Shown here piece by piece: positions 61-27,500 of a stretch of DNA of 33,819 nt. A program made the position numbers and the translations under genes. The stretch's first letter is position 1. Each line of letters starts with the position of its first letter. Under the pieces are notes generated by a model. It was not told the origin of the DNA. It was given only the letters and a program-made list of their open reading frames with translations, and did not search any database. Source of the stretch: an uncultured bacterium (lineage in GTDB: Bacteria; Krumholzibacteriota; Krumholzibacteriia; LZORAL124-64-63); assembly GCA_903912525.1 (NCBI GenBank), contig CAIWHK010000012.1:1-33819 (forward strand). Direction: 5' to 3'.

Positions 61-504
61 CTAGTGCAGGATCAGGATCGAGTTCTGCCCCCCGTACCCG
101 TCCGTCTCGCCGAGCGGGTTGTTCTGGTCCTGCTCCCATTTACCCACGCCCCAGTCGAGCGCGAACTTGTACAGGTAGCGGCCGGGCTTCAGGGGCACCA
201 CGCACTCCCAGACGCCGTCCTTGTCGTCGTCCTGCATGGCGCCGATCGCGTTGTCGAAGCGGCCGGCGGCCATCGTGCCGCACCAGCCGTTCTCGTCCCA
301 GTTCCCGCACAGGTTGACGTGGCGGGCCTGCGGCGCCTCGTAGACGAAGCGGACGGCGTGCTCGAAGTCGTCGACGCGATGGGGGGTCGGCAGCCGGTTG
401 CGCAGGATGCGCGAGTATCCGCAACCGGTTACCGCGACCATGACGGCCACGGCCAGCAGCGCGGATGCGAAACGGCCCCGGCGGATGATGGTGTGCGAAG
501 TCAT
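61..504 (-). CDS. Lipoprotein with a single glycogen-binding (CBM48/AMPK1-CBM-like) domain
   Basis: This 147-aa protein starts at the ATG ending at 504, preceded by an AGGGGG ribosome site that overlaps the stop region of the upstream gene; the upstream stop lies 11 bp away. Residues 1-28 form a lipoprotein signal with lipobox VTGC, so Cys28 is the probable lipidated residue. Residues 48-146 resemble an isoamylase-N/AMPK glycogen-binding beta-sandwich: a strand followed by NWDENGW (compare the xDFNGW turn of the family), a DxDxDGVWE turn, LKPGRYLYKFALD, and a closing NNPLGETDGYGGQNSIL strand. The same domain occurs twice in the next gene upstream, so the two products may work on the same polysaccharide. 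The protein has no catalytic domain. A longer frame upstream is only the antisense-like shadow of the neighbouring gene. Role inferred: membrane-anchored alpha-glucan binding or chaperoning to the transporter. Confidence 0.82.
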   Translation of the reverse strand: MTSHTIIRRGRFASALLAVAVMVAVTGCGYSRILRNRLPTPHRVDDFEHAVRFVYEAPQARHVNLCGNWDENGWCGTMAAGRFDNAIGAMQDDDKDGVWECVVPLKPGRYLYKFALDWGVGKWEQDQNNPLGETDGYGGQNSILILH

Positions 505-515
505 GTTCGTGCCCC

Positions 516-2963
516 CTAGAACTGCATCTGCGCGCGCAGGGTGATGACGCGGGCCTTGGCCAACTGGTCCTCGGCGTCCAGGGCCGTGGCCGTCGGGTTC
601 TCGAACAGCCAGCGCTGGCGGTACCACCAGCGGCCGGTCTGCCGGCCGTCGTAGGCGATCGAGAAGTCGACCGGGTCGACACCCCACCCGGCCACCAGAT
701 CGAGCCGGCGAACCGGCGTGTAGCGGACGCCGAGGAACGGCGCGAAGAAGTCGCGGTCGAGGTCGGCGCTGCCGTCCTGCTCGCGGTGGTAGCGGATCCA
801 GCGCAGGTCGGCGATCAGGCCCGTCGCGCGGGTGATGTCGCGATCCCAGCGCAGGATACCCTCGAAAGTGCGGTCGTTCAGGCCGGCCACGCCCTGGTCG
901 ATGCGGTTCAGGCCCCATTCCAGTTCGAAGTGGCCGTACTTGTCGGCGGGCAGGCCCTTGGTGGCGCGGCCCGCGAAGTAGGCGCTGTCCCGGCGGTGCG
1001 AACCGAGCGTCGTGTCGGCCGGCGCCCTGCGCCCGACGGCGGCATAGTCCATCTCGACGCTGGAGCGGCGCACCCACAGGGTCAGCGACTGGTCGCCCTG
1101 CTTCCAATTGAGGGAGAGCTCGGTGGAGTCGAGCGTGGCGACGGCGGGGCTGGGCAGGTCCGTGTACTGGACCCGGTTGCTGGCCGTGGCTTGCGGCAGG
1201 AACGAGATCGCCACTTCGCGCTCGGTGCCGGTGCCGCCACTCGTCGAATCCCACATGTGACGCAGGCGGCCGTCGAGGCCCTCGCGCGGCGTCCAGTCGG
1301 CCTCGACCTGGAAGCGCATCTGCGTGCGGTCCAGGAAAGGCACGTCCATGGCGCCGTTCGTGCCGTTCTGCCCGTACTTGTTGCCGGTGACGAAGCGCTG
1401 CATGCGATCGACGGCAACGCCTTCGACGCCCAGCAGCCACTGGTTATTGGCGCGGTAGCGGGCGTCGAGCCCCAGATTGTAGACGTGGTTCTCGACCTCG
1501 TACCACTCGCTGCCGTCGCTCGTGGCGGCGCGGTGTTCGTCCAGCGAGGGGAAGCCTGTCGAAGGCTGGCCCACCCGGGTGGCGAAGTCCATCCAGATCA
1601 TCCAGCGCTCGGCCCACAGGGGCAGGCCCAATTCAAGCTTGCCGACCTTGCGGGACAGGCGCAGGCCGATGCGGTCCTCGCCCGTGTTGTCGAAGAGGTC
1701 GGGGTCGTTGTAGAAGTCGTGGTTGTGGACGTTCGCGAAGAACGCGTCCATGTGCACGCCGACGGGATCGGCCGCGAACAGCGCACCCGCGGTGCCCTTG
1801 CCGTAGTTCAGGTGGTCGGGCAGGATGGTGCCCGGCAGGTCCAGGTCGCCGCCCATCCGCATCAGGTCGCCGCCCGTGAACGTCTCCTGGTTCCAGAACG
1901 CCCGCAACATGAAGCTGGCCGGGTGGGTGGTCAGCGAAGCCTCGTCCAGGAACGCCGCGATGTTGTTCTGGATGATGGCCTCGTTGGAATCCAGCCGCAT
2001 CCGCACCGAGGCGTCGGTCAGGTCGGAGATCTTCGCGTCGAAGTTCAGGTCAACCGACTGCGAGGGGCGCTGGAGGCGGAAACGCGGGTCCGAGCGCAGG
2101 TTCTTCGCGAACTCGAAGCGCGTCAGGTAGCGGCCGCCGATGTTGACCTTGGGGCTCAACGTCGTGTTGGACGTCGGGCGGCTGCTCTCCGGAGCTGCGC
2201 CGGCCGCGACCAGTTTGCCGTCGGCGCCCACCGTCACCAGCGAGTTCGTGCCGCCGTAGGGGTCGGGCGAAGTCTCGGGGTTCGCCGTGTCGGCGAACCA
2301 CGAGCCGTCGACGACGAACTTGTACTCGTGCTTGCCCGCCGGCAGCTTCTGCACGATGACCCAGTTGCCCTTGCCGTCATTGACCAGCGGCAGCTGGTCG
2401 GCATTCCAGCCGTTGAAGGTGCCCGCGAGGGTGACCTTGCCGGCGTCGGGGTTGTGGTAGGTGAACTGGATGCCGCCGTCGACCGCGTGGGGCGCGCCGA
2501 CCGTGAACTTCGCAGGGGCGCTCTTCGCCTTGTCGGCGGCCGGCGCGGGCGCTGCGACCGGCGCGGCTGTCACGACCGGCGTGCCGTCCTCGGCAACGGT
2601 GACCAGCGAGTTGCTGCCGCCGAACGGGTCGGCCTTCTTGCGCGGGTTGTCCGCGTCCTCCTGCCAGGCGCCGTCCACGACGTACTTGTATTCGTGGTCG
2701 CCGGGCGTGAGGGCGACGGTCGCGCTCCAGGCGCCGTCCTTGTCGAGCGCCAGCGCCTGGGCGGTGGCGCTCCAGCCGTTGAAGTCGCCGGCCAGGAACA
2801 CCGCCTTGGCCGACGGCGCGCGGCAGGTGAACGTGACGCCGTTCTTGCCGGCTGCGACGCCGGCCAGCGCTCCGGACGCGACCGCCAGGGTCAGGGCCAG
2901 CACGGTCAGCATCGTGAGCGCCCGGCGCAGGCGCGGGCTCGGGGAATTGCAGTACGCGGTCAT
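516..2963 (-). CDS. Outer-membrane beta-barrel with two N-terminal glycogen-binding domains
   Basis: This 815-aa protein has a hydrophobic signal segment at about residues 15-35. Two tandem domains of the CBM48/AMPK1-CBM type follow, at about 40-125 and 155-247. Each shows the family's turn (GDFNGW at 59-64, GTFNGW at 181-186), the core YKYVVDGAW or YKFVVDGSW strand, and a closing GGSNSLVTV or GGTNSLVTV strand. They are joined by an Ala/Pro-rich linker. Residues 265-815 alternate in the way of amphipathic transmembrane strands and end in QMQF; a terminal Phe is the usual last residue of outer-membrane barrels. The ATG at 2963 has a GGGAG site about 6 nt upstream. The gene is fourth in a five-gene leftward operon. 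A glycan-binding domain pair fused to a barrel suggests a specific alpha-glucan porin or surface receptor; pore function is inferred, and I do not recognise the barrel family. Confidence 0.85.
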   Translation of the reverse strand: MTAYCNSPSPRLRRALTMLTVLALTLAVASGALAGVAAGKNGVTFTCRAPSAKAVFLAGDFNGWSATAQALALDKDGAWSATVALTPGDHEYKYVVDGAWQEDADNPRKKADPFGGSNSLVTVAEDGTPVVTAAPVAAPAPAADKAKSAPAKFTVGAPHAVDGGIQFTYHNPDAGKVTLAGTFNGWNADQLPLVNDGKGNWVIVQKLPAGKHEYKFVVDGSWFADTANPETSPDPYGGTNSLVTVGADGKLVAAGAAPESSRPTSNTTLSPKVNIGGRYLTRFEFAKNLRSDPRFRLQRPSQSVDLNFDAKISDLTDASVRMRLDSNEAIIQNNIAAFLDEASLTTHPASFMLRAFWNQETFTGGDLMRMGGDLDLPGTILPDHLNYGKGTAGALFAADPVGVHMDAFFANVHNHDFYNDPDLFDNTGEDRIGLRLSRKVGKLELGLPLWAERWMIWMDFATRVGQPSTGFPSLDEHRAATSDGSEWYEVENHVYNLGLDARYRANNQWLLGVEGVAVDRMQRFVTGNKYGQNGTNGAMDVPFLDRTQMRFQVEADWTPREGLDGRLRHMWDSTSGGTGTEREVAISFLPQATASNRVQYTDLPSPAVATLDSTELSLNWKQGDQSLTLWVRRSSVEMDYAAVGRRAPADTTLGSHRRDSAYFAGRATKGLPADKYGHFELEWGLNRIDQGVAGLNDRTFEGILRWDRDITRATGLIADLRWIRYHREQDGSADLDRDFFAPFLGVRYTPVRRLDLVAGWGVDPVDFSIAYDGRQTGRWWYRQRWLFENPTATALDAEDQLAKARVITLRAQMQF

Positions 2964-5516: not shown

Positions 5517-8500
5517 CGGATCACCGCCACGGAATGGTTGCTGCGGATCGTTCGCGTGCCGCCGGCCTGATTGTAGGTCGCGATCACGCGCAGGATGTAG
5601 ATGCCGTACGGCACATAGTCGCCACGGCCGTTCCGGCCGTCCCAGATCAGGCCCGGCACGCGCCTGGGCGTCGGATCGTTGAGGTCCGCGCCGCTGTAGG
5701 GGAACGTCTCGGACAGGATCGTCTGGCGCACGCCGGAGATGTTGTAGATCTCGACGGTCACCGTGGCCTCGCCGCTCAGGTAGAAGCTGATGTTGGTCTC
5801 GTCGTAGAGCCCGTCGCCGTTCGGCGAGAACGGGTTCGGCGAGACCGTGATGCCCGACAGGACCTCGCCGCCGGCAGCCGCCACGGCGTCGGTCAGGAAC
5901 AGGCCGTAGCTGCCGGCGCGCTTGACGGTGGCCTTCACGTTGTTGCCGGTCGAGGTGACGTTGCCGCCGACCAGCAGCCAGCGTCTCGCGGCCGCGTTGT
6001 ACTGGTAGAGGGCCACGAGTTGTTCGGCGCCGCCGGCGGGTACCCAGTCCTGCGGGTAGTGCAGGCTCAGTTCCATGGTGCCGGGCAGCTCGCCGTCGTA
6101 GGCCAGGCCGCCGCCGAGCGAGTCCGCGGTGGCGAGGCCGATGTCCCGGAACACGCCCAACGGCACGCCCTCGGGGACGGCCGGGTCGGTGGTGATGCCG
6201 GCGGGCGTCGTGCCGATCTCCCAGTCGATCGCGATGTGGGCGCCCATCGTGTCCACCGTCGCGGCCCCGCCGGTCCAGGCCTGCGTCAGGTGGCGGGCCA
6301 CCATTTGCGCGCGCAGCGGCTCCGATAGCGTCACTTGCGAGCCGTCCACTTGCAGGAGGTTCACGTTCGGCCCGGCAAGCGTGTTCGACACCTTCCGGGA
6401 ACTTGCCGTCGGCGTGATCTCGAGCGTGGTGACCGGAGACACTGTCGGCTCGTTATTTGCTTGAGGGCTGTCGTCTGCCTCGATCTCGAACTCGAGGTAG
6501 CGCGTTCCTTCGATCGGCGAGACGGCCAGCGTCTCCAGGTACGGCGGCAGGATGTCGACCACCCAGATGTCGTTCCCGAGGTAGCCCATGGCCACCTCCT
6601 GGTCCCAGCCGGCGCCCGTGAAGTTGGTCGAGCGGTAGCGGAACGTCGCCGAACTCACGCGGTCATCGTCCGTGATGCGGAAGGCCAGCGCCAGCGGCGC
6701 GTCGGCCAAGGGTTCGACGCGCGTGACGACCGAACCCTTGCCGCCCGTGTCGATGACCGGCGGGCCGGTGTCCTCGAAGGCCGACATTTCGATGGCGACG
6801 GGCGTCAGACGGTCGGTCAGGCGCTGCTGGGCAGCCGCGGACTCGTAGTCGAGGATCTCCTCCTGCGTCTTGCCCGGCGCGTGACCAATGCCCGGCACCA
6901 GCAGCAGGTCGATGAGGTTCGCATCGCGGTCGCCGTTCGCCCCGCCGCCCAGGTTCCATTCGCTGCGTGACTCGTTGATCCAGCGGATGCCGCCGAGCAC
7001 TTCCTCGCCGCCGCTGTCGTGGCTCGACATGCACACCGCGATGTCCCACGCGCGGATGGCCTCGGGCGTCGGGTCGCCGAGCGCCGCCTTCGAGACGAAG
7101 GCCGTCACGGTATTGGCGTCGGGATCGCCGATGATCAGGATGTCCTTGTCCGTGCGAAGCGCATTTGCGCGCCAGGAGTCGAGCGTATTCTGGCTGAACG
7201 AGGGGATGAGCGCCTTGTACCAGCCGTCCATGATGACGGCGTAGTCCCAGGCGTCCCAGCGCTGGAATGCTGCGCCGCGGTTGGGCAGGCTGGAGGTGGC
7301 CCCGCCAGGCCCGTTGTCGATCAGGATGTCGATCTTCTCGATGTTGAGCTCGCCGTAGAGCGGGTTCCAGTCCGCCATGCCGGGGTCCGCCGGGTTCGGC
7401 AGGTCGCCGATCGCGACCTGGAAGGCGATCATCGGCACCGTGACGCCGCCGACCGTCGCCACGGTCTCGTACACCGTCAGCCCCGTCAGGTCGAAGGCGC
7501 CCGGCACGAAGACAATGTTGGTCGGGTAGGTGACGTACTTGCGCTGGCTGCCCTGCAGGTTGGGGCCATGGTCGTCGCCGGCGGGATCGCTCGTCTGGAT
7601 GATCGGATCGACTATGGCGGTGACGTCGACGGTCAACGTGTCAGCCGAGGCCAGTTCATTGCCGGCGTCCCAGGCCCGGAACACGAGGTCTTGGGCGCCG
7701 CCGGGGTTCCCCAACGGGACCAGGAGAACGTTTCCGAAACGCCCGTCACCGGCGGCCGCATCGCCGTGCCCGGACAGGCCATCATCGTACAGGCGCAGCG
7801 CGTCGTTGCCGCCGAGGGCCGACAGGTCGACCAGCACGTCGCCGATGCCGTCGCCAGCGTCGGTCGCCAGCACCGAGACGGTCACCGGTTGTCCGGCTGT
7901 CGGTGCCGCCGGCGTCGCCGTGGCTTCGGTGAGCGCCGGCGGTGTCGGAAAATCCTTCTTTACGACGTACGTGGGACTCCACGCCTGCAGGACTGTGGGC
8001 CCCAGCGCGATCGCCCAGTCGTCGGGTCCGGGGTTGTTGTAGTCGAACGTCAGATTGAGCGTCGCGTCCTGCGGCGCCGAGTCGAAGGCGGCCCGCTTGA
8101 CCCCGTCCTCCTGCGTCAGGTAGACCTCCATGCGCAGCGAGTCGGGTACGGTGCCGAACGGCGTCCAGGGCACGCGGATCACCACGCGGTCGGCCAGCTT
8201 GCGTACCCACACGGGCTGGATGTTGTAGGTGCCGCCGTCGACCGTGCTGTAGGCCTGCGCGGCCAAGTCCCACCATTCCCAGCGAGCAGCCGGAACGGCC
8301 GATGTGTTCCAGCGCCGGAAGTCGCCGTAGTCATTCGCCGAGTACTTCGTGACCAAGGCGAAGTCGGGCTTGTTCGCATGCGCGTAGGTGACCGGCTGCA
8401 GGAATGGGTCGTCCGTCGCACCAGCAGCATCGAAATTCGTCTCAAAGATGACGTGCAATTGGAGGCCGTTCCAAGAACTGACGAACGGGATCTCGAGGTT

Positions 8501-11284
8501 TAGCCCGCCCGGGTCGTTGTCCACAACCAGGGCCGTCAGGTCGGTCGTGTCAAACGTGCGGTGGTCCAGGGGCTCGTCGCTCCATGGCGCGTCGGGGATG
8601 ACCGAAACGTCGCGCAACTGCAGGTTGGCGCTGGCTGGTTCCAGGCCCTCGCCGGACACTCCCAAGGTGACCAGCCCGGCCAGGCCGGACGGCTGGAAAT
8701 CGGCGACCGCCCGACCGTGGCCGTCGGTCATCGCCGTGGCCGGCGAGAAGCCTCCGTGCGTGGACGGTTCAGTCGTGAACTGCGCCGTCAGGTTACTGTC
8801 GCCCGTGTCGTTGCCCCAGGCGTCGATCGGCATCGCTGTGATTGCGACTGGGGAATGCAGGTCGCTGACAGTCGTGGGCAGTGACAGCCGCCAACCGGCA
8901 GTGGGACCCGGTACAACGGTGATCGGCAGGTGGTCCAGGCCGCTGTCGAGCGATTCGCCGCGCACGTCCAGTGTGCGGTTCTGAACGATGGCCGCGGCCG
9001 TCACATGCACGGGACCGGCGCCGGTGGCCGACAGTACGCCTATCGCCCGGCCCTCGCCGTTGGTCAGCACCGTGGCGGATTCGAAGCGGCCGATGCCGGC
9101 GAAGCCCGGCACCTGCGCAAACGAAATCGGCACGTCCGGCAGCTGACTCCGGTTCCGGGCCGAGTCGTAGAGTTGTGCCTCGATGCGGATGGACTCGACC
9201 CCGCCTGCGACCAGCGTGTCGCGAGCGGCCGTCAGGACCACGGTCACCGGTTGCGGATCCTGGAACGCCACGATGATGCGACCGGCGATCGGTGCCTTGG
9301 CCGGCTGCGCCAGGTACACGCGCAGGACCTCGACTGCGGAGTTGCTCATCCAGAACTCGGCGCGTCCGTTCGTGAACGAGACCGTCGAGTCCACATCCGT
9401 CTGCAACGGTCCGTGGTAGAAGACCGGCGTGCCGCGAGTCGGCGAGACGTCGTCCATCTTTCGGGCCGACAACCGGAAGTTCGTGAGCCGGCCGTCTATG
9501 TCGTAGAGGTCGTCGTGGCCGGCGTCGTCGCGGGCCGCCAGCAGCACGCGCGTTGAAGTAAACGGGTGGCGTTCCGGGTCGTAATACGTGGCTCGCACTT
9601 CCGACTGTCGAGCGCCCTGATCGTCGATGATCTCCAAGTGCGTCGCACGCACCAGGGTCAAATCGAAGTCAAGGTTCGTCACATCCTGCCCGGCGATCAC
9701 GGTGAAGGTGGTGTCGACCTGGGCATAGACGGCCGGCAGTGTCGCGATGCTCAGCGTGAACGTGCCGCTCACCGGCGTGAAGAACTCGTAGTCGCCGCCG
9801 TTGTAGGGGAAGCCGCCGATGTCCAACTGGCGGCCTTCGCCGTCGCGGAACCAGATGGTGCCCGGCTTGCCGAGGCCGCTGACGAGTTCGGCAAAGCCGA
9901 TGCGGCCGGCGATGCGGGTCTGGCTGAGCAGCGTGACGACGGCGCCCGTGTAGTCGACGCCCGCAGTCACGTTGATCGGCGATTCGGTCGGCAGGTAGGT
10001 CGCCGCCGTGGCCGCCAGGACGTAGGCGCCGCCCTCCTCGACGAAGAACGCAAACGTCGTGTCGGTCGCCGTGAAGGCGCGCGAGTCGAGTACGGCGCCG
10101 CCGGAAGCGCGCAATTCGATGGTGCCGGCGCGGCCCTCGCGCGTGGCGAAGCGCACGGCGCCGCGGATGGCCGTCGACTTGCCCAGCACCTGGTCGACCC
10201 CCGTCAGGGCCTGGCCAGAGGTGACGCCGACCGTGGTGGATTCCGAAAAGTACCCGTTGGCGCTGGTCGTCACGAGGTAGCTGCCGGCCGGCAGGCGGGG
10301 CAGCGTCCACGTGCGCACGCCGGCCGCCGGCGTGACGGTGCTGACCGGGGAACCGATGGCCCGGCCCGCGAAGTCGAGCATCTCGGCCGTGATCGTCAGG
10401 CGCGTCAGCCCGTCGTCCGCGGGCAATGTGGCCGTGCCGCTGACGCTCGCATTGGCGGCGTCGGGAATGCCGTCGCCCGTGACGTCGATGACCGAGGCGT
10501 GCATCGCCGACACGGTGGCCGTGGCCGTCGTGTTGTCGAAACTCGTGTTGTTAGGCGCGGGGTCGATGCCGTTGCGGGCCGCATCCGCGTGGCCCACGAA
10601 GGCGAGGGCCTTGATGACCGCGTGCGTCGGCACCTCGCCGCCGAGGTCGGGATAGAGCACGTTCCAGGGGATCGCGATCTCGACGGTGTTCCAGAACGGC
10701 CACAGGGCCTTGGCATCGGCGGCCGTCCCGGTGTCGTTGGCCTGCGCCATCGTCACCTGGCCGAAGACGGGGGACACGGTTCCGGTCCCGTCGGTGACCA
10801 GGTAGGCGCGCGGCTTGAGCCCCGGGTAGACCTGGGCGGCCTGGCGGCCGATCACGAAGTCGACGTGATGGCCGGCGGGCAGCATCACGTTGGCGGGGAG
10901 CGAGTCGAGCAGCGCCGCGTTCGTCGGCCCGACGCCGCGGTCGAGGTCGAGGTAGACGCTGAGCCCGTCGTCGGCCGAGTAGTCCTGGTAGGTCAGGCCG
11001 AGGTAGAGGTTGCCCGCGTCCCACGTCATCCACATCCGGCGCACGTTCGACTGGCGTGTCGCCGTGTTGTCGTCGGCGATATCGTCGACAACCTTGTCGG
11101 CGAGGTCCCAGTCGGCGGCATCGACGGTGATGATCCCGTTGAGGGTCGGCGTGTCGAACGGCACGGCGCGAGCCGTCGGGGCCGCGAGCGCGGCCAGCAG
11201 GAGGACGACGGCGACGGTCACGAGAAGGCCCCCGAGGGGGGCCGCGGGGGGCGTCGGCCACCCCTTGGGCTTGTTGGTGTTCAT
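5513..11284 (-). CDS. Giant secreted protein with glucodextranase-C-like module and FlgD-like tail
   Basis: This 1923-aa protein has a signal peptide at 1-40 (long hydrophobic run, PTARA then V). In order it shows a CBM9/DOMON-like domain (about 44-245), carboxypeptidase-regulatory-like beta domains (about 295-545), invasin-type Ig-like domains (about 660-895), and a second CBM9-like domain (about 908-1095). An Ig-like segment comes next, then a region at about 1231-1500 matching the glucodextranase C-terminal binding module (PF09985-like: DPAGDDHGP, the FVPGAFDLTGLTVYE strand, QVAIGDLPNP). A FlgD Ig-like tail (SPNPFSPNGDG ... GLIWDGRNGRGDYVPYGIY) ends at 1923. No catalytic domain is evident, so it is probably a surface glucan-binding or scaffold protein. 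The chosen ATG has no Shine-Dalgarno; a TTG at 11329 in the same frame would add 15 residues and sits too close to an AGGAGG. It is the first gene of the leftward operon. Confidence 0.85.
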   Translation of the reverse strand: MNTNKPKGWPTPPAAPLGGLLVTVAVVLLLAALAAPTARAVPFDTPTLNGIITVDAADWDLADKVVDDIADDNTATRQSNVRRMWMTWDAGNLYLGLTYQDYSADDGLSVYLDLDRGVGPTNAALLDSLPANVMLPAGHHVDFVIGRQAAQVYPGLKPRAYLVTDGTGTVSPVFGQVTMAQANDTGTAADAKALWPFWNTVEIAIPWNVLYPDLGGEVPTHAVIKALAFVGHADAARNGIDPAPNNTSFDNTTATATVSAMHASVIDVTGDGIPDAANASVSGTATLPADDGLTRLTITAEMLDFAGRAIGSPVSTVTPAAGVRTWTLPRLPAGSYLVTTSANGYFSESTTVGVTSGQALTGVDQVLGKSTAIRGAVRFATREGRAGTIELRASGGAVLDSRAFTATDTTFAFFVEEGGAYVLAATAATYLPTESPINVTAGVDYTGAVVTLLSQTRIAGRIGFAELVSGLGKPGTIWFRDGEGRQLDIGGFPYNGGDYEFFTPVSGTFTLSIATLPAVYAQVDTTFTVIAGQDVTNLDFDLTLVRATHLEIIDDQGARQSEVRATYYDPERHPFTSTRVLLAARDDAGHDDLYDIDGRLTNFRLSARKMDDVSPTRGTPVFYHGPLQTDVDSTVSFTNGRAEFWMSNSAVEVLRVYLAQPAKAPIAGRIIVAFQDPQPVTVVLTAARDTLVAGGVESIRIEAQLYDSARNRSQLPDVPISFAQVPGFAGIGRFESATVLTNGEGRAIGVLSATGAGPVHVTAAAIVQNRTLDVRGESLDSGLDHLPITVVPGPTAGWRLSLPTTVSDLHSPVAITAMPIDAWGNDTGDSNLTAQFTTEPSTHGGFSPATAMTDGHGRAVADFQPSGLAGLVTLGVSGEGLEPASANLQLRDVSVIPDAPWSDEPLDHRTFDTTDLTALVVDNDPGGLNLEIPFVSSWNGLQLHVIFETNFDAAGATDDPFLQPVTYAHANKPDFALVTKYSANDYGDFRRWNTSAVPAARWEWWDLAAQAYSTVDGGTYNIQPVWVRKLADRVVIRVPWTPFGTVPDSLRMEVYLTQEDGVKRAAFDSAPQDATLNLTFDYNNPGPDDWAIALGPTVLQAWSPTYVVKKDFPTPPALTEATATPAAPTAGQPVTVSVLATDAGDGIGDVLVDLSALGGNDALRLYDDGLSGHGDAAAGDGRFGNVLLVPLGNPGGAQDLVFRAWDAGNELASADTLTVDVTAIVDPIIQTSDPAGDDHGPNLQGSQRKYVTYPTNIVFVPGAFDLTGLTVYETVATVGGVTVPMIAFQVAIGDLPNPADPGMADWNPLYGELNIEKIDILIDNGPGGATSSLPNRGAAFQRWDAWDYAVIMDGWYKALIPSFSQNTLDSWRANALRTDKDILIIGDPDANTVTAFVSKAALGDPTPEAIRAWDIAVCMSSHDSGGEEVLGGIRWINESRSEWNLGGGANGDRDANLIDLLLVPGIGHAPGKTQEEILDYESAAAQQRLTDRLTPVAIEMSAFEDTGPPVIDTGGKGSVVTRVEPLADAPLALAFRITDDDRVSSATFRYRSTNFTGAGWDQEVAMGYLGNDIWVVDILPPYLETLAVSPIEGTRYLEFEIEADDSPQANNEPTVSPVTTLEITPTASSRKVSNTLAGPNVNLLQVDGSQVTLSEPLRAQMVARHLTQAWTGGAATVDTMGAHIAIDWEIGTTPAGITTDPAVPEGVPLGVFRDIGLATADSLGGGLAYDGELPGTMELSLHYPQDWVPAGGAEQLVALYQYNAAARRWLLVGGNVTSTGNNVKATVKRAGSYGLFLTDAVAAAGGEVLSGITVSPNPFSPNGDGLYDETNISFYLSGEATVTVEIYNISGVRQTILSETFPYSGADLNDPTPRRVPGLIWDGRNGRGDYVPYGIYILRVIATYNQAGGTRTIRSNHSVAVIR

Positions 11285-11322: not shown

Positions 11323-11349
11323 TCCCCAAGCCCTCCTAAATGTCCCCAA
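11323..11349. promoter_or_regulatory. Direct repeat, possible regulator site in divergent promoter region
   Basis: The heptamer TCCCCAA occurs at 11323-11329 and again at 11343-11349, exactly 20 bp apart, so both copies face the same side of the helix. They lie between the divergent operons. A shared activator or repressor is plausible, but nothing in the window identifies it. Confidence 0.3.
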
Positions 11350-11389
11350 TCCATGCGGGATTTCCGCAGCCGTCTTTTCGGTTGGGTGG

Positions 11390-11418
11390 TTGTTGGGAGC
11401 GCCGATCCGGTGTAAGGT
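11390..11418 (+). promoter_or_regulatory. Candidate promoter of the malEFG operon
   Basis: TTGTTG (11390-11395) is separated by 17 nt from TAAGGT (11413-11418). The -10-like hexamer ends 8 nt before the malE ATG, the same distance as in the leftward operon. If used, the transcript would be leaderless or nearly so. The same bases also read as an AAGGTG ribosome site, so the two interpretations compete. Confidence 0.38.
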
Positions 11419-11426
11419 GCGCTCCC
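11395..11426 (+). promoter_or_regulatory. Inverted repeat abutting the malE start codon
   Basis: GGGAGCGC (11395-11402) and GCGCTCCC (11419-11426) form a perfect 8-bp inverted repeat with a 16-nt loop. The right arm ends directly before the ATG, and the AAGGTG ribosome-site candidate straddles the edge of the loop. It could be an operator, or an RNA hairpin affecting translation start if transcription begins upstream. Confidence 0.4.
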
Positions 11427-12704
11427 ATGGATACCTGTCGCCATTCCCGTCACCCCGGCCGCCTTCGCCGGACCGGGCGCGTTTTCGCGCCAGTCCTGCT
11501 TCTGCTGGCGTTCCTGGGCGGTTGCAGCCGATCTGATCGCGCCCGCTCGGTGGTCATCTGGGAGCAGATGGACCCCAAGGAGCAGGAGCTGTTCGACGTC
11601 CATGTCGCCCAGTTCCGCCAGCAGCACCCCGAATTCGGCTCCTTTTCGATCGAGCGGGTCCACTACCGCGTCGAGGACCTGCAGACCCAGTTCCAGACCG
11701 CGGCCCTGGCCTTCGGCGGTCCCAGCCTGGTCTACGGGCCTTCCGACAAAATCGGCCCCTACTCGATCATGGGCCTGTTGATGCCGGTCGACGAGCTGCT
11801 GCCGGCGTCCGAACTGGCGCGCTTCCAGCCCGGAACCCTGCCGGAACTGCAGGGCCGCGTCTGGGGGCTGCCCGACCAGGTCGGCAACCACCTGACCCTG
11901 GTGGCCAACCGCGCGCTCGTCGATACGGTCGCCACCGACACCGACACCTGGCTGCGGCAGCTGAAGGAACTGACCATCGACAAGGACGGCGACGGCAAGC
12001 CCGAGCAGTACGGGCTGGTGTTCAACCTGCTCGAGCCGTTCTGGCTGGTGCCCTGGGTGGGCGGCTACGGCGGCGTCGTGATGGATGACCAGTCGCGGCC
12101 CACGCTCGACACGCCGGCGATGACGCAGGCGCTGGGCTTCCTGTCCGAACTCAAGCGGGCGCATGTCGTGCCGCTCGAGTGCGACTACCCGCTGGCCGAC
12201 ACCATTTTCAAGGAAGGCCGCGCTGCCTACCTGATCAACGGCCCCTGGTCGTGGCAGGGCTACCGCGACGGCGGCATCGACATCGCGCTGGCCCCGTTGC
12301 CGATGGTCAGTGCGACCGGCCAGTGGCCGGCGCCGCTCATCTCGGCCAAGTGCTACAGCATCAATCGCTACCTGGACCCGGCGACGAAGGAATGCACCGC
12401 CGCGCTGCTGGCCTGGCTGACCGGCCCCGAGGTGCAGTTGGACCTGGCGCGCAAGCTGGGCGTGCAGCCGGGCGACCTGACGGCCGCCGCCGCGCCCGAA
12501 CTGAAGGACGACCCGTTGATGATGGCCAGCCGCGAGCAGATCGCCCGCGGCCGCCTGATGCCGATCGTGCCCGAGATGCGCGCCATCTGGGACGCGATGC
12601 GCCCGTCGTACCAGAGCGTGATGAACGGCGAGCTGACGCCGGCTGCCGCCGCTGCCGCGATGCAGAAGCAAGCCGTCGAGTCGATCGAGGTGATGCACGA
12701 ATGA
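11427..12704 (+). CDS. malE: Maltose/maltodextrin-type ABC transporter substrate-binding lipoprotein
   Basis: This 425-aa protein has a lipoprotein signal with lipobox LGGC, so Cys33 is the probable anchor. The mature part follows the family 1 extracellular solute-binding pattern: VVIWEQMDPKEQELFDVHVAQ near the start, a buried LVYGPSDKIG segment, the VWGLPDQVG strand, a helical lobe with NLLEPFWLVPWVGGYGG, and IFKEGRAAYLINGPWSWQGY, equivalent to the 'GKAAMxINGPW' signature of MalE. DKDGDGKPEQYGL is a typical calcium-like insertion. The ATG at 11427 puts the lipobox in place; an earlier in-frame ATG at 11340 would add 29 residues that look non-coding. The stop overlaps the next gene as ATGA. 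The substrate is inferred as maltodextrin from sequence style and from the glycogen-binding neighbours; another oligosaccharide is possible. Confidence 0.88.
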   Translation: MDTCRHSRHPGRLRRTGRVFAPVLLLLAFLGGCSRSDRARSVVIWEQMDPKEQELFDVHVAQFRQQHPEFGSFSIERVHYRVEDLQTQFQTAALAFGGPSLVYGPSDKIGPYSIMGLLMPVDELLPASELARFQPGTLPELQGRVWGLPDQVGNHLTLVANRALVDTVATDTDTWLRQLKELTIDKDGDGKPEQYGLVFNLLEPFWLVPWVGGYGGVVMDDQSRPTLDTPAMTQALGFLSELKRAHVVPLECDYPLADTIFKEGRAAYLINGPWSWQGYRDGGIDIALAPLPMVSATGQWPAPLISAKCYSINRYLDPATKECTAALLAWLTGPEVQLDLARKLGVQPGDLTAAAAPELKDDPLMMASREQIARGRLMPIVPEMRAIWDAMRPSYQSVMNGELTPAAAAAAMQKQAVESIEVMHE

Positions 12705-13624
12705 ACGGTCGCCGCGGGCTCGTCCTCTGGTTCCTGTTGCCGTCGCTGCTGGTGCTGGCCGGGGTGGTGGCCTACCCGTTCGTGTTCAACCTCTGGATCT
12801 CGATGACCAACTGGAACATGTTCCACTTCCAGCATCCGCAGTTCCAGGGCCTGGGGCACTACGCCAAGATCGTGCGCATGATCGGCGAGCCGTTTGCCCG
12901 CCCGCTGTCGCAGTGGCCGGCCGCGTTTGCCGCCAACGAGTTCTATCACATCTTCGGCAAGACCTTCGCCTGGACCGCGGTCAACCTGGTCTTCCACTTC
13001 ACGCTGGGCCTGGGCGCCGCGCTGCTGCTGAACCGCAAGCTGCCCGCGCGCGGCCTCTACCGCGCGCTCCTGATCCTGCCCTGGGCGATGCCGCAGTACA
13101 TCAGCGCGCTGACCTGGCGCGGGATGTTCAACACCGAGTACGGCGTCATCAACCAGTTGCTGGCCAAGGTCGGCGCGGCGCCGATACCCTGGTTCAGCTC
13201 GGAATTCTGGGCGTTCATGGCTCCGACCATCACCAACATCTGGCTGGGCTTCCCGTTCATCATGGTGATCGCGCTGGGCGGCCTGCAGAGCATCCCGCAG
13301 GAGCTGTACGAGGCCGCGCGCATCGACGGCGCCGGCCCGGTGCGCCGCTTCTTTCATATCACGCTGCCGATGCTCAAGCCGGTGCTGCTGCCGGCGCTGG
13401 TGCTGGGCACCATCTGGACGTTCAACAACCTGAACGTCATCTGGCTGGTCACCGACCAGGGCCTGCCCGCCGACAAGACGCACATCCTGGTCACCTACGT
13501 CTACAAGGCGGCGTTCTTCTACTACCGCTACGGCTATGCGGCGGCATTCAGCGTCTTCATCTTCCTGGTGCTGATGTTCATCGTGCGCGGCTACGACCGC
13601 GTGGCCAAGCAGGAGGTCTATTGA
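12701..13624 (+). CDS. malF: Maltodextrin-type ABC transporter permease, MalF-like
   Basis: This 307-aa inner-membrane protein has about six hydrophobic segments, the first at residues 8-32 and the last at about 275-297. The EAA loop that docks the ATPase is clear at about 204-223: EAARIDGAGPVRRFFHITLP. Its start overlaps the malE stop by ATGA and its stop shares one base with the malG start, so the three genes are translationally coupled. It lacks the large periplasmic P2 loop of E. coli MalF but keeps a short insert between the first two segments (residues 34-85), as many bacterial MalF proteins do. It pairs with the next gene to form the transmembrane channel. Confidence 0.9.
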   Translation: MNGRRGLVLWFLLPSLLVLAGVVAYPFVFNLWISMTNWNMFHFQHPQFQGLGHYAKIVRMIGEPFARPLSQWPAAFAANEFYHIFGKTFAWTAVNLVFHFTLGLGAALLLNRKLPARGLYRALLILPWAMPQYISALTWRGMFNTEYGVINQLLAKVGAAPIPWFSSEFWAFMAPTITNIWLGFPFIMVIALGGLQSIPQELYEAARIDGAGPVRRFFHITLPMLKPVLLPALVLGTIWTFNNLNVIWLVTDQGLPADKTHILVTYVYKAAFFYYRYGYAAAFSVFIFLVLMFIVRGYDRVAKQEVY

Positions 13625-14469
13625 TGAACAGCAGGCGTCGCGCCGCAAAGGCGTGGGAGATGGTCTGGGTCCATGCGCTGGTCTGGCTGCTGGTGCTCTT
13701 CGCCGTGTTCCCGGTGCTGCAGGTGATCGGCATCAGCCTGCGGCCGGGCGACCAGCTCTATTCGACGAAGCTGGAACTGGTGCCGCCGCACGCGACCCTC
13801 GACGCCTACCGCATCATGCTGACCGAGAAGCCGTTCTTCCACTGGCTGGGCAACTCGCTGCTGGTCTCGCTGGCCACGGCGCTGGTGGGCGTGGCGCTGG
13901 CCAGCCTGGGCGGATTCGCGCTGTCGCGCGGCCGCTTTGCCGGCCGAGGCGCGGTGCTGCAGGGCATCCTGATGACGCAGATGTTCCCGGCCACGATGCT
14001 GCTCCTGCCGCTGTACCTGCTGATGCGCAAGCTGCACCTGGTCGACACCCTGGGCGGCGTGGTCATCGCCTACGTGGCCACCGCGCTGCCGTTCTGCATC
14101 TGGACGATGAAGGGCTACTACGACACCATCCCCGCCGCGCTGAACGAGGCCGCGCTGATCGACGGCTGCACGCCGCTGAGCGCGTTCATACGGGTGACGC
14201 TGCCGCTGAGCGCGCCGGCGCTGGTCATCACGGCGCTGTTCAGCTTCATGACGGGGTGGAGCGAGTTCATGGTCGCGCGCGTGCTGCTGGCCAGCCAGGA
14301 CCTGATGACGCTGCCCCTGGGGCTCGAGTCGCTGTTCACCACCTACCAGACCGAGTGGGCCAACTATGCGGCCGGCTCACTGCTGGTCTGCATTCCCGTC
14401 GTGGCGCTGTTCCTGGCGCTGAACAAGTTCCTGATCTCGGGGCTGACGCTCGGCAGCGTCAAGGGCTGA
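13624..14469 (+). CDS. malG: Maltodextrin-type ABC transporter permease, MalG-like
   Basis: This 281-aa protein has six predicted membrane segments and the EAA motif at about 175-194 (EAALIDGCTPLSAFIRVTLP). Typical MalG features are SLRPGDQLYSTKLELVPPH after the first segment, AYVATALPFCIWTMKGYYDTIP before the EAA loop, and a C-terminal GLTLGSVKG. A clear AGGAGG lies 7 nt before the ATG, inside the end of malF. It is the second channel subunit. No ATPase gene follows, so the importer must borrow an energy-coupling subunit encoded elsewhere, as known for MsiK-type shared ATPases. Confidence 0.92.
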   Translation: MNSRRRAAKAWEMVWVHALVWLLVLFAVFPVLQVIGISLRPGDQLYSTKLELVPPHATLDAYRIMLTEKPFFHWLGNSLLVSLATALVGVALASLGGFALSRGRFAGRGAVLQGILMTQMFPATMLLLPLYLLMRKLHLVDTLGGVVIAYVATALPFCIWTMKGYYDTIPAALNEAALIDGCTPLSAFIRVTLPLSAPALVITALFSFMTGWSEFMVARVLLASQDLMTLPLGLESLFTTYQTEWANYAAGSLLVCIPVVALFLALNKFLISGLTLGSVKG

Positions 14470-21101: not shown

Positions 21102-21279
21102 GAATAGATAGTTGTTTGTTGACGGTATGAATTGAGGACTTGCCCGATCCGCGGGGGACGCGTTCGGGCGGCCTGATGCGACAGTCGTGATCGGAACAAG
21201 GTGCGCCGCCACACGGGTGGCGCGCCGGGCGGTCGCCCCGCTGGTCACGTCGCCAGGCAATAGGAAGGACTCCCATTTC

Positions 21280-24200
21280 ATGTCCACCTCGCTCGCCCGT
21301 TTTCCGCTGCGCGGACTGCTGCGCCAGGTCGCCCTCGCCGCCTGCGTAGTCCTCGCCGGTTTCTCGGCCGCTCGCGCCCAGGTCATCGCCGATGACTTCC
21401 ACGCCTGCGCCGTGGATTCGGCGTGGACGTTCGTCGACCCGCTGGGTGACGGCGGCAGCGCCTCCATCACCGGCGGTTACACGGGCGACGCCCACCTGGC
21501 CCTGTCCGTGCCGGGCGGTGTCGAGCACGAGGCATGGGCTGGTGCGGTCAACGCGCCGCACCTGTCGCGCCCGCTGGCCGACGCCGACTTCACGACGACC
21601 GTGAAGTTCGCCTCGGCGCTGCCTGCCGGGTGGGCCCAGGAAGGCCTCTTCATCCGCGAGGGCGCGTCGCAGTGGCTGCGCCTGGAATTCTATCGCGATG
21701 CGGCGGGCTACTTCCACGTCGCGGCCATCGGGTCGCCGACCACGGTCTTCTACGACACGTTCCTGGAGCCGAGCGTGCCGTCGCCGTTCTACATGCGCGT
21801 CACGCGCACCGGCGATTCGTGGCTGGTCGAGTGGTCGAACGACGGCGTCGCCTGGACCACGGCCGGCCCCGCGTTCACGTTTGCCTTCCACCCCGACCGG
21901 CTGGCCATCTATGCCGGCAACCGCGGCGAGACGCCGCCGGCGCACACGGTGCAGGTCGACTGGATCGGCACGGACGGCGCCGGGGACGACGTCGAGCGCA
22001 ACACCCTGACGACGTCGGTCAGCGGCGGCGGCCTCGTGGCGCGCGGCCCCGAACTGTTGAATTACGCCTGCGGGCAGACGGTGACGCTGACGGCGGTCGA
22101 GGAGCCGGGCTGGGCGTTCGCCGGCTGGAGCGGCGCGGTCACCGGCACGCAGAACCCGGTGACGGTCACGATGAGCGGTCCGGACTCGGTCCTGGCCACG
22201 TTCGCTCCGGTGCCGGTCGACACGCTGGTGACGGCGGTCAGCGGCGGCGGCTCGATCAGCCTGTCGCCCCCGGGCGGCATCTACAATCGCGGCACGGTCG
22301 TCACGGTGACGGCCGTCGACGGCCCGGGCTGGGCGTTCGACGCGTTCACGGGCGACCTGTCGGGCAGCGTCAACCCGCAGACGATCACGATGACCGGCAA
22401 CCGCGCGGTCACGGCGGCGTTCACGTCCGTCGCGCAGTACACGGTTACGGCGAGCGTCGACCCGGCCTCTTCCGGCTCGGTCACGCTGAACCCGGCCGGC
22501 GGCACCTACAACGCGGGCACCAAGGTCGTCGTGCGGGCGATCCCCGCGCAGGGCTGGATCTTCTCGGGCTGGAGCGGCGACCTCGCGGGCGTCTCGACCC
22601 CCGACTCGCTGGTGGTCGACGCCGACAAGGTGGTCACCGCGGCGTTCACGGCGCTGCCGTTGCGCGTGCTGACGACCACGGTCAGCGGCTCGGGCACGAT
22701 CGTCCGCGCGCCGGACCAGGCGCAGTACCTCGACGGCACGAAGGTCGTGCTGGCGGCGGTGCCTGACGCCGGCTGGCGCTTCACGGGCTGGAGCGGCGAC
22801 CTGGCGGGGACGGCCACGCCGGACTCGCTGGTGATGAGCGCGGACCACGCCGTGGCCGCGACGTTCGAGGCCATCCCGCCGGTGATCGCCTCCGACGACT
22901 TCAACCGCTGCGACCTGGGCGCGGCGTGGACCGTCGTCGATCCGTTTGCCGACGGCGGCACGGCGCAGATGACGGGCGGCTACACGAACGACGCCGGCGT
23001 GGCGATCAGCGTGCCGGGCGGCTTCGAGCACGAGATCTGGGCGGGCCAGATCGGTGCGACGCACATCCTGCAGCCGTCGCCGGACGTGGACTTCACCATC
23101 GAGGCGAAGTTCGACGCCGACCTGCCGGGCAACTTCGCGCAGGAAGGCATCGTCATCAAGGAGAGCGAGGCGCGCTGGGTGCGCGCGGAGATCTTCCGCG
23201 ATGACACCAATCGCCTGCGGGTCGCGGTCGACCGCGGTCCGAACATCCTGACGCACGACGTGTACCTGCCCGAGGGGCTGACGGCGCCGATGTGGATGCG
23301 CGTGACGCGCACCGGCGACACGTGGGTGCAGTCGTGGTCGTCGGACGGCGTGAACTGGACCGTGGCCGGTGGGCCGTTCACCTACGACATGACCGTGACG
23401 GCGACCGGCCTGTTCGCCGGCAACCGCGGCAGTGCGCCGCCGGCGCACACGGTGGTCGTCGACTACATCCGCAACACCGCGGGCGCGCCCGTGGGCGAGG
23501 ACGCCGACCGGGCCCCGTTGACCGTGACGGTGGACGGGACGGGCGTCGTGAACCGGACCCTGGACCTGCCCAGCTACGGGTGCGGCCAGGTGGAGACGTT
23601 GACGGCCGTCGGTCAGCCGGGCTGGGCGTTCAGCAGCTGGAGCGGCGCGGCTACCGGCACGCAGAATCCCGTGACGGTGCCGATGAACGGCCCGGGCGCG
23701 GTCCTGGCCACGTTCGTTCCCGTGCCGGTCGACACGCTGGTGACGGCGGTCAGCGGCGGCGGCTCGATCAGCCTGTCGCCTCCGGGCGGCATCTACAATC
23801 GCGGCACCGTCGTGACGGTGACGGCGGTCGACGGCCCGGGCTGGGCGTTCGACGCGTTCACGGGCGACCTGGTGGGCAGCGTCAATCCGCAGACGATCAC
23901 GATGAACGGCAACCGCGCGGTCACGGCGGCTTTCACTTCGGTGGCCCAGTACACGGTGACGGCGAACGTGGACCCGGCCTCGTCGGGCACGGTCACGCTG
24001 AACCCGGCCGGCGGCACCTACAACGCGGGCACCAAGGTCGTCGTGCGGGCGATCCCCGCGCAGGGTTGGGTCTTCACGGGCTGGAGCGGCGACCTCGCGG
24101 GTGTCGCGACGCGCGACTCGCTGGTGGTCGACGCCGACAAGGTGGTCACCGCGGCGTTCACGGCGCTGCCGTTGCGCGTGCTGACGACGACGGTCAGCGG

Positions 24201-27200
24201 CTCGGGCACGATCGTCCGCGCGCCGAACCAGGCCGATTACCTGGACGGCACGAAGGTCGTGCTGGCGGCGGTGCCGGATGCCGGCTGGCGCTTCCTGGGC
24301 TGGAGCGGCGACCTGGCGGGGACGGCGACGCCGGACTCGCTGGTGATGAGCGCTGACCACGCGGTGGGCGCGACGTTCGAGATCATCCCGCCGGTCATCG
24401 CGTCGGACGACTTCAACCGTTGCGACCTGGGCGCGACGTGGACCGTCGTCGACCCGTACGGCGACGGCGGCACGGCGCAGATGACGGGCGGCTACACGAA
24501 CGACGCCGGCGTTGCGATCAGCGTGCCTGGCGGCTTCGAGCACGAGATCTGGGCGGGCCAGATCGGTGCGACGCACATCCTGCAGCCGGCGCCGGACGTG
24601 GACTTCACCATCGAGGCGAAGTTCGACGCGGACCTGCCGGGCAACTTCGCGCAGGAAGGCATCGTCATCAAGGAGAGCGAGGCGCGCTGGGTGCGCGCGG
24701 AGATCTTCCGCGACGACTTCAACCGGCTGCGGGTCGCGGTCGACCGCGGTCCGGACATCCTGACGCACGACGTGTACCTGCCGGAAGGCCTGACGGCGCC
24801 GCTGTGGATGCGCGTTACGCGCACGGGCGACACCTGGGTGCAGTCGTGGTCGTCGGACGGCGTGACCTGGAACGTCGCGAGCGGTCCGTTCACGTACCAC
24901 ATGACCGTCACCGCGGCGGGCCTGTTCGCCGGCAACCGCGGCAGCGCGCCGCCGGCCCACACGGTGGTCGTCGACTACATCCGCAACACCGCGGGCGCGC
25001 CCGTGGGCGAGGACGCCGACCGCGCTCCGTTGACGGTGACGGTGGACGGGACGGGCGTCGTGAACCGGACCCTGGACCTGCCGAGCTACGGGTGCGGCCA
25101 GGTGGAGACGTTGACGGCCGTCGGGCAGCCGGGCTGGGCGTTCAGCAGTTGGAGCGGCGCCGTGACCGGCACGCAGAACCCCATCGCGGTCACGATGTCC
25201 GGGCCGGCCACCGTCGTGGCGCATTTCACGGTCCTGCCGCAGTACGCGCTCAGTGTCGGCACGGCTTCCGGGCAGGGCTCGGTGCAGGTGAGCCCGGCGG
25301 GCGGCCTCTACTACGAAGGGACGCGGGTCGCGGTCACGGCCGTGCCCGACTTCGGCTGGTCGTTCTCCGGTTGGGGCGGCGACCTCAGCGGGATCGCCAA
25401 CCCCGATACGCTGGTGATGTCCGGCGCGCGCTCGGTCACGGCATCGTTCGTGCAGCTGCCGACGCCGAATTTCGTCAGTATCGCGGCGCCGGCGGGCCAG
25501 AGCCTCTCGACGATCACGTCGTGCCTCGACAGCATCGCCGTGCGCCTGGACCGCCTCGAGTCCGACCCGATCCACTCGTTCAGCCTCGGCCTGAAGCTCA
25601 CGAACCTGGCGCTGTGCAGCGGCGCCGCCTCGGTCCGTGAAGGCGGCTACCTGGGCGCCCACGGCAGCGTGTCGTTCGTCGTCACGCAGACCAGCGACAG
25701 CACGCTGACCGTCGACGGCACGCTCCTGAGCGGCCCGTGCGGCGCCAGCGAGCCCGCCGGCGTGCTGGCCTGGCTCGACGTGTCGGCGCTCATCAGCGAC
25801 GGCACCGGCTCGGTCACGGTCACGTCGGTTCAGCTGCGCGGCTGCGACGACCTGCCCCGCATCGTCGAAGCCACGGGCCCCGGCACGGTGACGATCGACA
25901 ACACGCCGCCGGCTCCTGCCACGGGGCTGACGGCCGCGACCTTGATGTCCGGCAACGCCGCCGGTTCGTTGACGGCGATCAACGTGGCCTGGACCGCCGT
26001 GCCTGCGCTTGACGTCCAGTCGATCGAGGTGTGGCGCAAGGGCTTCGGTGCGCAGCCCGAGTTCTCCGATGGCGGCGGCGCCGTGCCGGCGATCCCTGCG
26101 GCCGGCACCGACCCGGCCAGTGTCGGCTGGCAGCTGGCGGGCGTGCTTGGCGGCAGCGCCGCAGGGGTGCTCGACCACCCGGTGACGCGCGACTACTGGT
26201 ACTACCACGTCCGCACGGTGGACGCCGCGGGCAACCGCGCCGTGACGCCGACCCTTGCCGTGGCCCTGGATTACCTCCTCGCGGATGTGGCAGGCGGCGT
26301 GGGCAACGTGGGCGACGACATGGTGGGTGGGGCCGATGTCGCGGCCTTCTCCGGCGCGTACGGCTCGCTGGACGGCCAGCCGTCCTACCGCAACGGTTGC
26401 GATGTGGGCCCGACGGCGGATGCCGGGCCGTTCTCGCTGCCGACGACGGACAACCGCATCGACTTCGAGGACCTGATGATCCTCAGCCTCAGCCACGGCC
26501 TTGACGCCGTGGGCGGGGCCTCGTCCCTGGCGTCCTCGCCGGCGCCGGCCGGCGGCAATGCGCTGATGCTGACCCCCGACACGCTGCCGGGAGTCGGGTC
26601 GACGTTCCCGGTCACCATCGTGATGGCGGGCGACGGCACCGTGCAGGGCCTGAGCATCCCGCTCACGTGGGACAACGCCGTCGTGACGCCGGTCGCGGCA
26701 GTCTCCGGGGCGCTGCTGTCGGGCCAGGGCGGTTCGTCGCTGGTCTTCATGCCGCAGCCGGGGCTCATCGATGTGGCCCTGCTCGGCCTGCGCGAGCGCG
26801 GCATCTCGGGCGCGGGCGCCCTGGCCGTGGTCACGTTCGAGGTCGTCGGCACGGGGCAGCCTCGGTTCGGTTTCGGCACGGTCACGGCGCGCAGCCGTGA
26901 GAACGCCGCGGCGGCCGTGACCATCAACGGCGTCTCGGACGCTCCTGACCTGCCGGCCACGCCGGTGATGACGGTCCTGCACCAGAACAAGCCGAACCCG
27001 TTCAACCCGCGGACAACGGTGTCGTTCGACCTGGCGCGTCCGGGGCAGGTGCGGCTGATGGTCTATGGCGTGGACGGTCGTCTGGCGCGTGTCCTGGCCG
27101 ACGGCTCCCTGCCGGCCGGCAACCATGCCTACACCTGGGACGGCACCGACGAGGGCGGCCGACGCCTGGCCTCGGGCGTGTACCTGGTGCGGTTGGTCAC

Positions 27201-27243
27201 GCCGGACGGCATTCGCGATGTCCGGATGACCATGCTCAAGTAA
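21280..27243 (+). CDS. Giant secreted repeat protein with DUF1349-like, InlB-repeat, cohesin/dockerin-like and FlgD-like parts
   Basis: This 1987-aa protein has a signal peptide at 1-33 (AARA then Q). In order it shows a DUF1349/concanavalin-like domain (about 36-230), four divergent InlB B-repeats (about 242-530), a second DUF1349-like domain (535-735), four more InlB repeats (746-1035), a third DUF1349-like domain (1039-1238), and two to three InlB repeats (1249-1395). A cohesin-like domain (about 1397-1540) and a fibronectin III-like domain (about 1541-1665) follow, then a dockerin-like pair of loops (ADVAGGVGNVGDDMVGGADV and CDVGPTADAG...DNRIDFEDLMILS, about 1664-1745) and a second cohesin-like domain (1760-1890). 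A FlgD Ig-like tail closes it (NKPNPFNPRTTVSF to VRMTMLK). It is probably a surface adhesin or scaffold. No catalytic motif is seen. The gene has its own promoter and terminator. Confidence 0.87.
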   Translation: MSTSLARFPLRGLLRQVALAACVVLAGFSAARAQVIADDFHACAVDSAWTFVDPLGDGGSASITGGYTGDAHLALSVPGGVEHEAWAGAVNAPHLSRPLADADFTTTVKFASALPAGWAQEGLFIREGASQWLRLEFYRDAAGYFHVAAIGSPTTVFYDTFLEPSVPSPFYMRVTRTGDSWLVEWSNDGVAWTTAGPAFTFAFHPDRLAIYAGNRGETPPAHTVQVDWIGTDGAGDDVERNTLTTSVSGGGLVARGPELLNYACGQTVTLTAVEEPGWAFAGWSGAVTGTQNPVTVTMSGPDSVLATFAPVPVDTLVTAVSGGGSISLSPPGGIYNRGTVVTVTAVDGPGWAFDAFTGDLSGSVNPQTITMTGNRAVTAAFTSVAQYTVTASVDPASSGSVTLNPAGGTYNAGTKVVVRAIPAQGWIFSGWSGDLAGVSTPDSLVVDADKVVTAAFTALPLRVLTTTVSGSGTIVRAPDQAQYLDGTKVVLAAVPDAGWRFTGWSGDLAGTATPDSLVMSADHAVAATFEAIPPVIASDDFNRCDLGAAWTVVDPFADGGTAQMTGGYTNDAGVAISVPGGFEHEIWAGQIGATHILQPSPDVDFTIEAKFDADLPGNFAQEGIVIKESEARWVRAEIFRDDTNRLRVAVDRGPNILTHDVYLPEGLTAPMWMRVTRTGDTWVQSWSSDGVNWTVAGGPFTYDMTVTATGLFAGNRGSAPPAHTVVVDYIRNTAGAPVGEDADRAPLTVTVDGTGVVNRTLDLPSYGCGQVETLTAVGQPGWAFSSWSGAATGTQNPVTVPMNGPGAVLATFVPVPVDTLVTAVSGGGSISLSPPGGIYNRGTVVTVTAVDGPGWAFDAFTGDLVGSVNPQTITMNGNRAVTAAFTSVAQYTVTANVDPASSGTVTLNPAGGTYNAGTKVVVRAIPAQGWVFTGWSGDLAGVATRDSLVVDADKVVTAAFTALPLRVLTTTVSGSGTIVRAPNQADYLDGTKVVLAAVPDAGWRFLGWSGDLAGTATPDSLVMSADHAVGATFEIIPPVIASDDFNRCDLGATWTVVDPYGDGGTAQMTGGYTNDAGVAISVPGGFEHEIWAGQIGATHILQPAPDVDFTIEAKFDADLPGNFAQEGIVIKESEARWVRAEIFRDDFNRLRVAVDRGPDILTHDVYLPEGLTAPLWMRVTRTGDTWVQSWSSDGVTWNVASGPFTYHMTVTAAGLFAGNRGSAPPAHTVVVDYIRNTAGAPVGEDADRAPLTVTVDGTGVVNRTLDLPSYGCGQVETLTAVGQPGWAFSSWSGAVTGTQNPIAVTMSGPATVVAHFTVLPQYALSVGTASGQGSVQVSPAGGLYYEGTRVAVTAVPDFGWSFSGWGGDLSGIANPDTLVMSGARSVTASFVQLPTPNFVSIAAPAGQSLSTITSCLDSIAVRLDRLESDPIHSFSLGLKLTNLALCSGAASVREGGYLGAHGSVSFVVTQTSDSTLTVDGTLLSGPCGASEPAGVLAWLDVSALISDGTGSVTVTSVQLRGCDDLPRIVEATGPGTVTIDNTPPAPATGLTAATLMSGNAAGSLTAINVAWTAVPALDVQSIEVWRKGFGAQPEFSDGGGAVPAIPAAGTDPASVGWQLAGVLGGSAAGVLDHPVTRDYWYYHVRTVDAAGNRAVTPTLAVALDYLLADVAGGVGNVGDDMVGGADVAAFSGAYGSLDGQPSYRNGCDVGPTADAGPFSLPTTDNRIDFEDLMILSLSHGLDAVGGASSLASSPAPAGGNALMLTPDTLPGVGSTFPVTIVMAGDGTVQGLSIPLTWDNAVVTPVAAVSGALLSGQGGSSLVFMPQPGLIDVALLGLRERGISGAGALAVVTFEVVGTGQPRFGFGTVTARSRENAAAAVTINGVSDAPDLPATPVMTVLHQNKPNPFNPRTTVSFDLARPGQVRLMVYGVDGRLARVLADGSLPAGNHAYTWDGTDEGGRRLASGVYLVRLVTPDGIRDVRMTMLK
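22060..25210 (+). repeat. Long in-frame direct repeat with a 1512-bp period
   Basis: Inside the giant gene the sequence matches itself at an offset of exactly 1512 bp (504 codons). For example the stretch beginning TGCCGGTCGACACG is at 22211 and 23723, and GACTACATCCGCAACACC is at 23461 and 24973. One period is a DUF1349-like domain plus four InlB repeats. There are about two full periods, with the first DUF1349-like domain (from 21376) more diverged. Many stretches are identical over tens of bases. Confidence 0.9.
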
Positions 27244-27408: not shown

Positions 27409-27500
27409 TTCATATGCCCTACATTTCGTCCGCCAGCGCCCTGTTGCCTATGATCGGCGACGGGGTGCTTCGCGGCATGTCCGGATCGAAGGATGAGACC

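Follow-up and report, generated by a model that had tools for sequence, protein, structure and literature searches.

A beta-barrel protein with fused glycogen-binding domains in a conserved operon of uncultured Krumholzibacteriota, a candidate outer-membrane alpha-glucan uptake system

An uncultured freshwater bacterium of the phylum Krumholzibacteriota encodes an outer-membrane-type barrel protein (the target) that carries two glycogen-binding domains in front of its barrel. The target lies in the window, which is the whole stretch of 33,819 nucleotides analysed here (contig CAIWHK010000012.1, Table 1). The fusion, the intact glucan-contact residues of the fused domains, a gene order fixed across the class, and the adjoining maltodextrin ABC genes and multi-CBM48 amylases were all established in this work. 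Alpha-glucan uptake is the most economical reading of this arrangement and a probable one, its direction and substrate being taken from the neighbouring genes only. With less assurance, we also lean towards the joint reading, in which conserved outer-membrane uptake of alpha-glucans (glycogen or starch dextrins) is combined with glycogen-binding domains that face the periplasm.

Table 1. Position and basis of the features discussed, in coordinates of the window.
Feature	Coordinates	Strand	Basis and remarks
CBM48 lipoprotein	80..504	minus	VTGC lipobox, one divergent CBM48; starts 11 bases past the target stop
Target CDS, 815 aa	2963..516	minus	ORF; signal peptide ~1-35 (by reading the sequence), CBM48 #1 ~39-125, linker, CBM48 #2 ~160-248, predicted ~22-strand outer-membrane barrel 272-815
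Barrel segment of the target, residues 272-815	519..2150	minus	AlphaFold2, Foldseek; no known family
Barrel-proximal AMPK1_CBM/CBM48 domain, residues ~160-248	2220..2486	minus	Pfam
Distal AMPK1_CBM/CBM48 domain, residues ~39-125	2589..2849	minus	Pfam
Second outer-membrane barrel, 539 aa	3004..4623	minus	Structure prediction, ~24 predicted strands; ends WF; no known family
PorV/PorQ-like outer-membrane protein, 298 aa	4620..5516	minus	NF033709 match below cut-off; 4-base overlap with each neighbour gene
Giant secreted protein, ~1,925 aa	5513..11284	minus	Ig-like regions, Glucodextran_C, FlgD/CHU_C-like C-terminal domain; start ATG 11284 or TTG 11329
MalE-like solute-binding protein	11340..12704	plus	Best NCBIfam model MalE; divergent from the operon
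MalF-like permease	12700..13624	plus	Best NCBIfam model MalF; approximate start
MalG-like permease	13630..14469	plus	Best NCBIfam model MalG; approximate start

The first-pass annotation had described two CBM48/AMPK1-CBM domains, with GDFNGW and GTFNGW turns, before a barrel of about 550 residues ending in QMQF, had named no strand, and had stated that no standard porin family is known to have this layout. The ORF lies on the minus strand, both motifs are present, the C-terminal end reads RAQMQF, and Pfam recovered the two AMPK1_CBM stretches (PF16561, E 2.8e-29, score 101.6 bits, cut-off 26.8) as well as CBM_48 (E 2.8e-22). Residues ~265-815 of the target (~545 residues) matched nothing in Pfam, in NCBIfam or among PDB sequences. 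When all 28 members of the target family were scanned, no credible barrel-family match was found in any of them; the CBM families were matched by 27, the remaining member being truncated at the contig start. The fusion of two glycogen-binding domains to an outer-membrane barrel is confirmed as real. Its layout fits none of the standard porin families, and it was not described in the open-access literature searched.

Known outer-membrane identities were considered for the target and rejected. LamB maltoporin (PF02264) had no match in the target or in its own genome (the E. coli control was positive). SusC and other TonB-dependent receptors were discarded because neither the PF00593 barrel nor the plug matched the target; the genome encodes 10 such receptors, all on contigs other than that of the window. 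The SusE/SusF model (PF16411) scored 17.7 bits in the target against a cut-off of 27.5.

AlphaFold2, run on the 28-sequence alignment of the target, returned two CBM sandwiches followed by ~22 strands in residues 272-814 (mean pLDDT 79, pTM 0.62). The gaps after odd strands had a mean length of 19 residues and varied strongly among relatives, while those after even strands had a mean of 3.7 residues and hardly varied (p ~1e-4 for mean length and for variability alike). Strand amphipathicity was above that of shuffled sequences (14/2000 for the single sequence, 1/500 for the family), and phenylalanine was the terminal residue in every complete family member. The target therefore carries the marks of outer-membrane beta-barrels: a signal peptide, an even number of amphipathic strands, alternation of long and short loops and a terminal aromatic residue. 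The top PDB matches found by Foldseek were TonB-dependent and other outer-membrane barrels, with E values down to 9e-10 and TM-scores of only ~0.2-0.35, which support the fold class but not barrel closure or the exact strand count. Assignment of the C-terminal segment to the outer-membrane barrel class is well supported by these predictions, with closure and exact strand count less certain, and the barrel of the first-pass annotation is upheld to that extent.

The first-pass annotation had left open whether the CBMs face outwards or the periplasm. Its proposed structure prediction placed them N-terminal of strand 1, and the loop pattern favours the second option. Because an N-terminal domain precedes strand 1, the strand count is even, the long loops follow odd strands and the protein ends in F, both termini, and hence the CBMs, are probably in the periplasm, as judged from the model. 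The opposite orientation, with CBMs that would bind glycogen or starch outside the cell like SusE/SusF, is improbable. Surface capture is the usual role of starch-binding outer-membrane lipoproteins, and the giant neighbour appears to be surface-exported, both of which would suit outward CBMs; however, the features just listed point to the periplasm, and surface exposure would need threading of the domains through the barrel.

The residues W100, K126, W133 and N150 (AMPK beta1 numbering), which contact sugar in AMPK, did not vary in any of the 40 domain copies in the target family (27/27 first copies, 13/13 second copies). In 27 aligned entries of the lipoprotein, W100, K126 and W133 were also invariant and N150 was kept in 26, with a gap in one. 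With its contact positions intact, the CBM48 pair of the target is a putative glucan-binding unit. Two CBMs were present in 13 relatives (window included) and one in 14, and none of the 27 relatives with an intact N-terminal end lacked the barrel-proximal domain. In a tree of the CBM domains, single CBMs grouped with the barrel-proximal copy (support 0.85) and the distal copies formed their own group (support 0.96), suggesting that the distal domain was likely gained once, inside the family of the window, although this is a tree of short sequences with an arbitrary root. AMPK1_CBM domains also occur elsewhere in the genome: a ParA/MinD-type ATPase (AAA_31, E 9e-49) on contig C32 (88610-89696, minus; L010:8611-9696) carries one at its C-terminus (E 1e-11), forming an ATPase-glycogen-binding-domain fusion, and a 134-aa protein on contig C8 (L011:4663-5064) consists mostly of this domain.

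The giant and PorV-like genes overlap by 4 bases, as do the PorV-like and second-barrel genes, and the gaps that follow are of 40 and 11 bases. This spacing indicates that the five genes probably form a single transcript. A profile search of this phylum detected the target barrel in 28 of 80 genomes (18 of the 46 high-quality ones) and gave no detectable barrel in the other 52. The search for the same fusion that the first-pass annotation had proposed thus found the barrel, with one or two CBMs, conserved in 28 genomes. Wherever the contig extends, all 28 loci run from the giant through the PorV-like gene, the second barrel and the target to the lipoprotein; the second barrel was seen in 27, the lipoprotein in 25, the PorV-like gene in 24 and the giant in 22 (one a weak match), the rest being lost to contig ends. 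A scan of genome contigs returned only three close relatives, all uncultured-bacterium MAGs. The plasmid protein search gave CBM-level matches alone (7-11% coverage) and no barrel, and viral contigs scanned with the second barrel gave no match.

The PorV-like protein matched NF033709 with E 3.3e-16 and 59.8 bits, below the cut-off of 90. The giant protein contains Glucodextran_C (E 3.1e-26), and its tail matched the T9SS sorting domain TIGR04183 weakly (18.2 bits, cut-off 23). SprA, the T9SS translocon, was matched in all 78 genomes of the phylum searched, including that of the target. These matches make export of the giant by T9SS plausible. They would also agree with another role for the operon, namely export or assembly of a glucan-rich surface layer, or secretion of the giant in the manner of a T9SS accessory, in which case the CBMs would bind glucan made by the cell itself: the operon includes a PorV-like gene and a giant with a CHU_C/T9SS-like tail, and SprA occurs throughout the phylum. 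But MalE/F/G, MalK and the amylases serve catabolic import and hydrolysis, the loci read showed no glucan synthase, and we consider this role improbable. Two further large genes lie on the plus strand of the window. The product of 21187-27243 (2,018 aa) carries ten InlB B-repeats (PF18998), three DUF1349 stretches and, at its C-terminus, a FlgD-like domain; that of 27414-31307 (1,297 aa) has a FlgD_ig domain at its C-terminus and a weak GH57 match that narrowly misses the cut-off.

Structure prediction of the second barrel gave ~24 strands (pTM 0.70), and its PDB fold matches included TonB-dependent barrels and pilus ushers. In hhalign it was distantly similar to the first part of the target's barrel (E 7.7e-5, probability 62). 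Its mean column identity was higher than that of the target (51% vs. 39%), and conservation was higher on its polar than on its apolar face (p = 4e-6), a difference that the target did not show in the same comparison. These two differences make the second barrel probably the better pore candidate, and the target may not act as the pore. They also favour an alternative in which the CBM-barrel serves as an anchor or scaffold. It would keep the CBM48 domains, and perhaps an amylase or the lipoprotein, at the outer membrane and leave transport to the second barrel. We regard this alternative as possible but unlikely: the target barrel is full-size (~540 residues) with a length conserved across the class, whereas an anchor could be much smaller.

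In the window, MalE, MalF and MalG were each the best NCBIfam model for the divergent genes yet stayed below the equivalog cut-off; the carbohydrate ABC type is clear. Among the 28 loci, MalE was visible in 10 and multi-CBM48 GH13 genes in 14, and the loci of relatives carry GH13 genes with 2-5 CBM48 copies, lipoprotein GH13 genes, CBM20 proteins and MalK. In the genome of the target, contig C59 carries MalK and a GH13 amylase that bears four CBM48 domains and adjoins a GH13 lipoprotein (L009:3062-6460 and 6656-8605). As the window contig ends just past the lipoprotein gene, these genes, now on another contig, may once have been neighbours of the operon.

The main evidence for function lies in the five-gene operon, the second barrel, the CBM lipoprotein and the maltodextrin ABC genes, none of which the first-pass annotation had described. 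Uptake of alpha-glucan, the favoured reading, could proceed as follows. The target would be one subunit beside the second large barrel, the PorV-like barrel, the giant secreted surface protein and the CBM48 lipoprotein. Its barrel would insert with both ends periplasmic, and the CBM48 pair would hang beneath the pore on flexible linkers. There the pair would bind glucan chains as they emerge from the pore, and chain binding would favour net inward movement. The glucan would then be handed to a CBM48-bearing periplasmic amylase and to MalE/MalFGK. The 539-aa barrel would be the probable main pore and the CBM-barrel a partner or second pore. Several observations weigh against this reading: the modest pTM and low TM-scores of the target, the lack of extra conservation on its polar face, the 52 genomes with no detectable barrel, and the location of the amylases of its genome on a different contig. 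A bolder version is offered tentatively, as we hold it to be doubtful in full: a TonB-independent utilisome in which two plug-less novel-family barrels, the PorV-like barrel, the T9SS-exported surface protein and the CBM lipoprotein form one complex, and the CBM48 domains in the periplasm work as a passive ratchet that draws long chains of alpha-glucan through the outer membrane.

Among known systems, the Bacteroidota Sus system or outer-membrane utilisome (SusCDEFG; PMC7618045 for the utilisome concept) is close. Like it, the proposed machinery would be a multi-protein outer-membrane system for alpha-glucans, with its barrels, its binding lipoprotein and its amylases encoded at a single locus. 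By contrast, the operon locus has no TonB-dependent barrel and its barrels match no family, the CBM48 domains of the target are fused to a barrel and probably periplasmic, and the inner-membrane step would use a MalFGK-type ABC transporter. Pairing of an outer-membrane channel with a maltodextrin ABC transporter recalls LamB with MalEFGK, but the target has ~22 predicted strands instead of 18, fused CBM48 domains and a five-gene operon. The AMPK-beta glycogen-binding domain belongs to the same domain family and has the same glucan-contact positions, although the PDB matches show it in kinases, phosphatases and GH13 enzymes and in no membrane barrel. The SLH-porin SlpA (PDB 8agd), which is among the fold matches, also has an extra N-terminal domain ahead of its barrel. 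SLH domains bind the cell wall, while the N-terminal domains of the target are of the glucan-binding type.

How large glucans move across the outer membrane is largely open outside Bacteroidota and Enterobacteria, and the phylum is seen here solely through uncultured genomes. With its new barrel families and its glycogen-binding domains joined to a barrel, the conserved operon would offer a testable alternative to LamB diffusion and to TonB-driven SusCD uptake.
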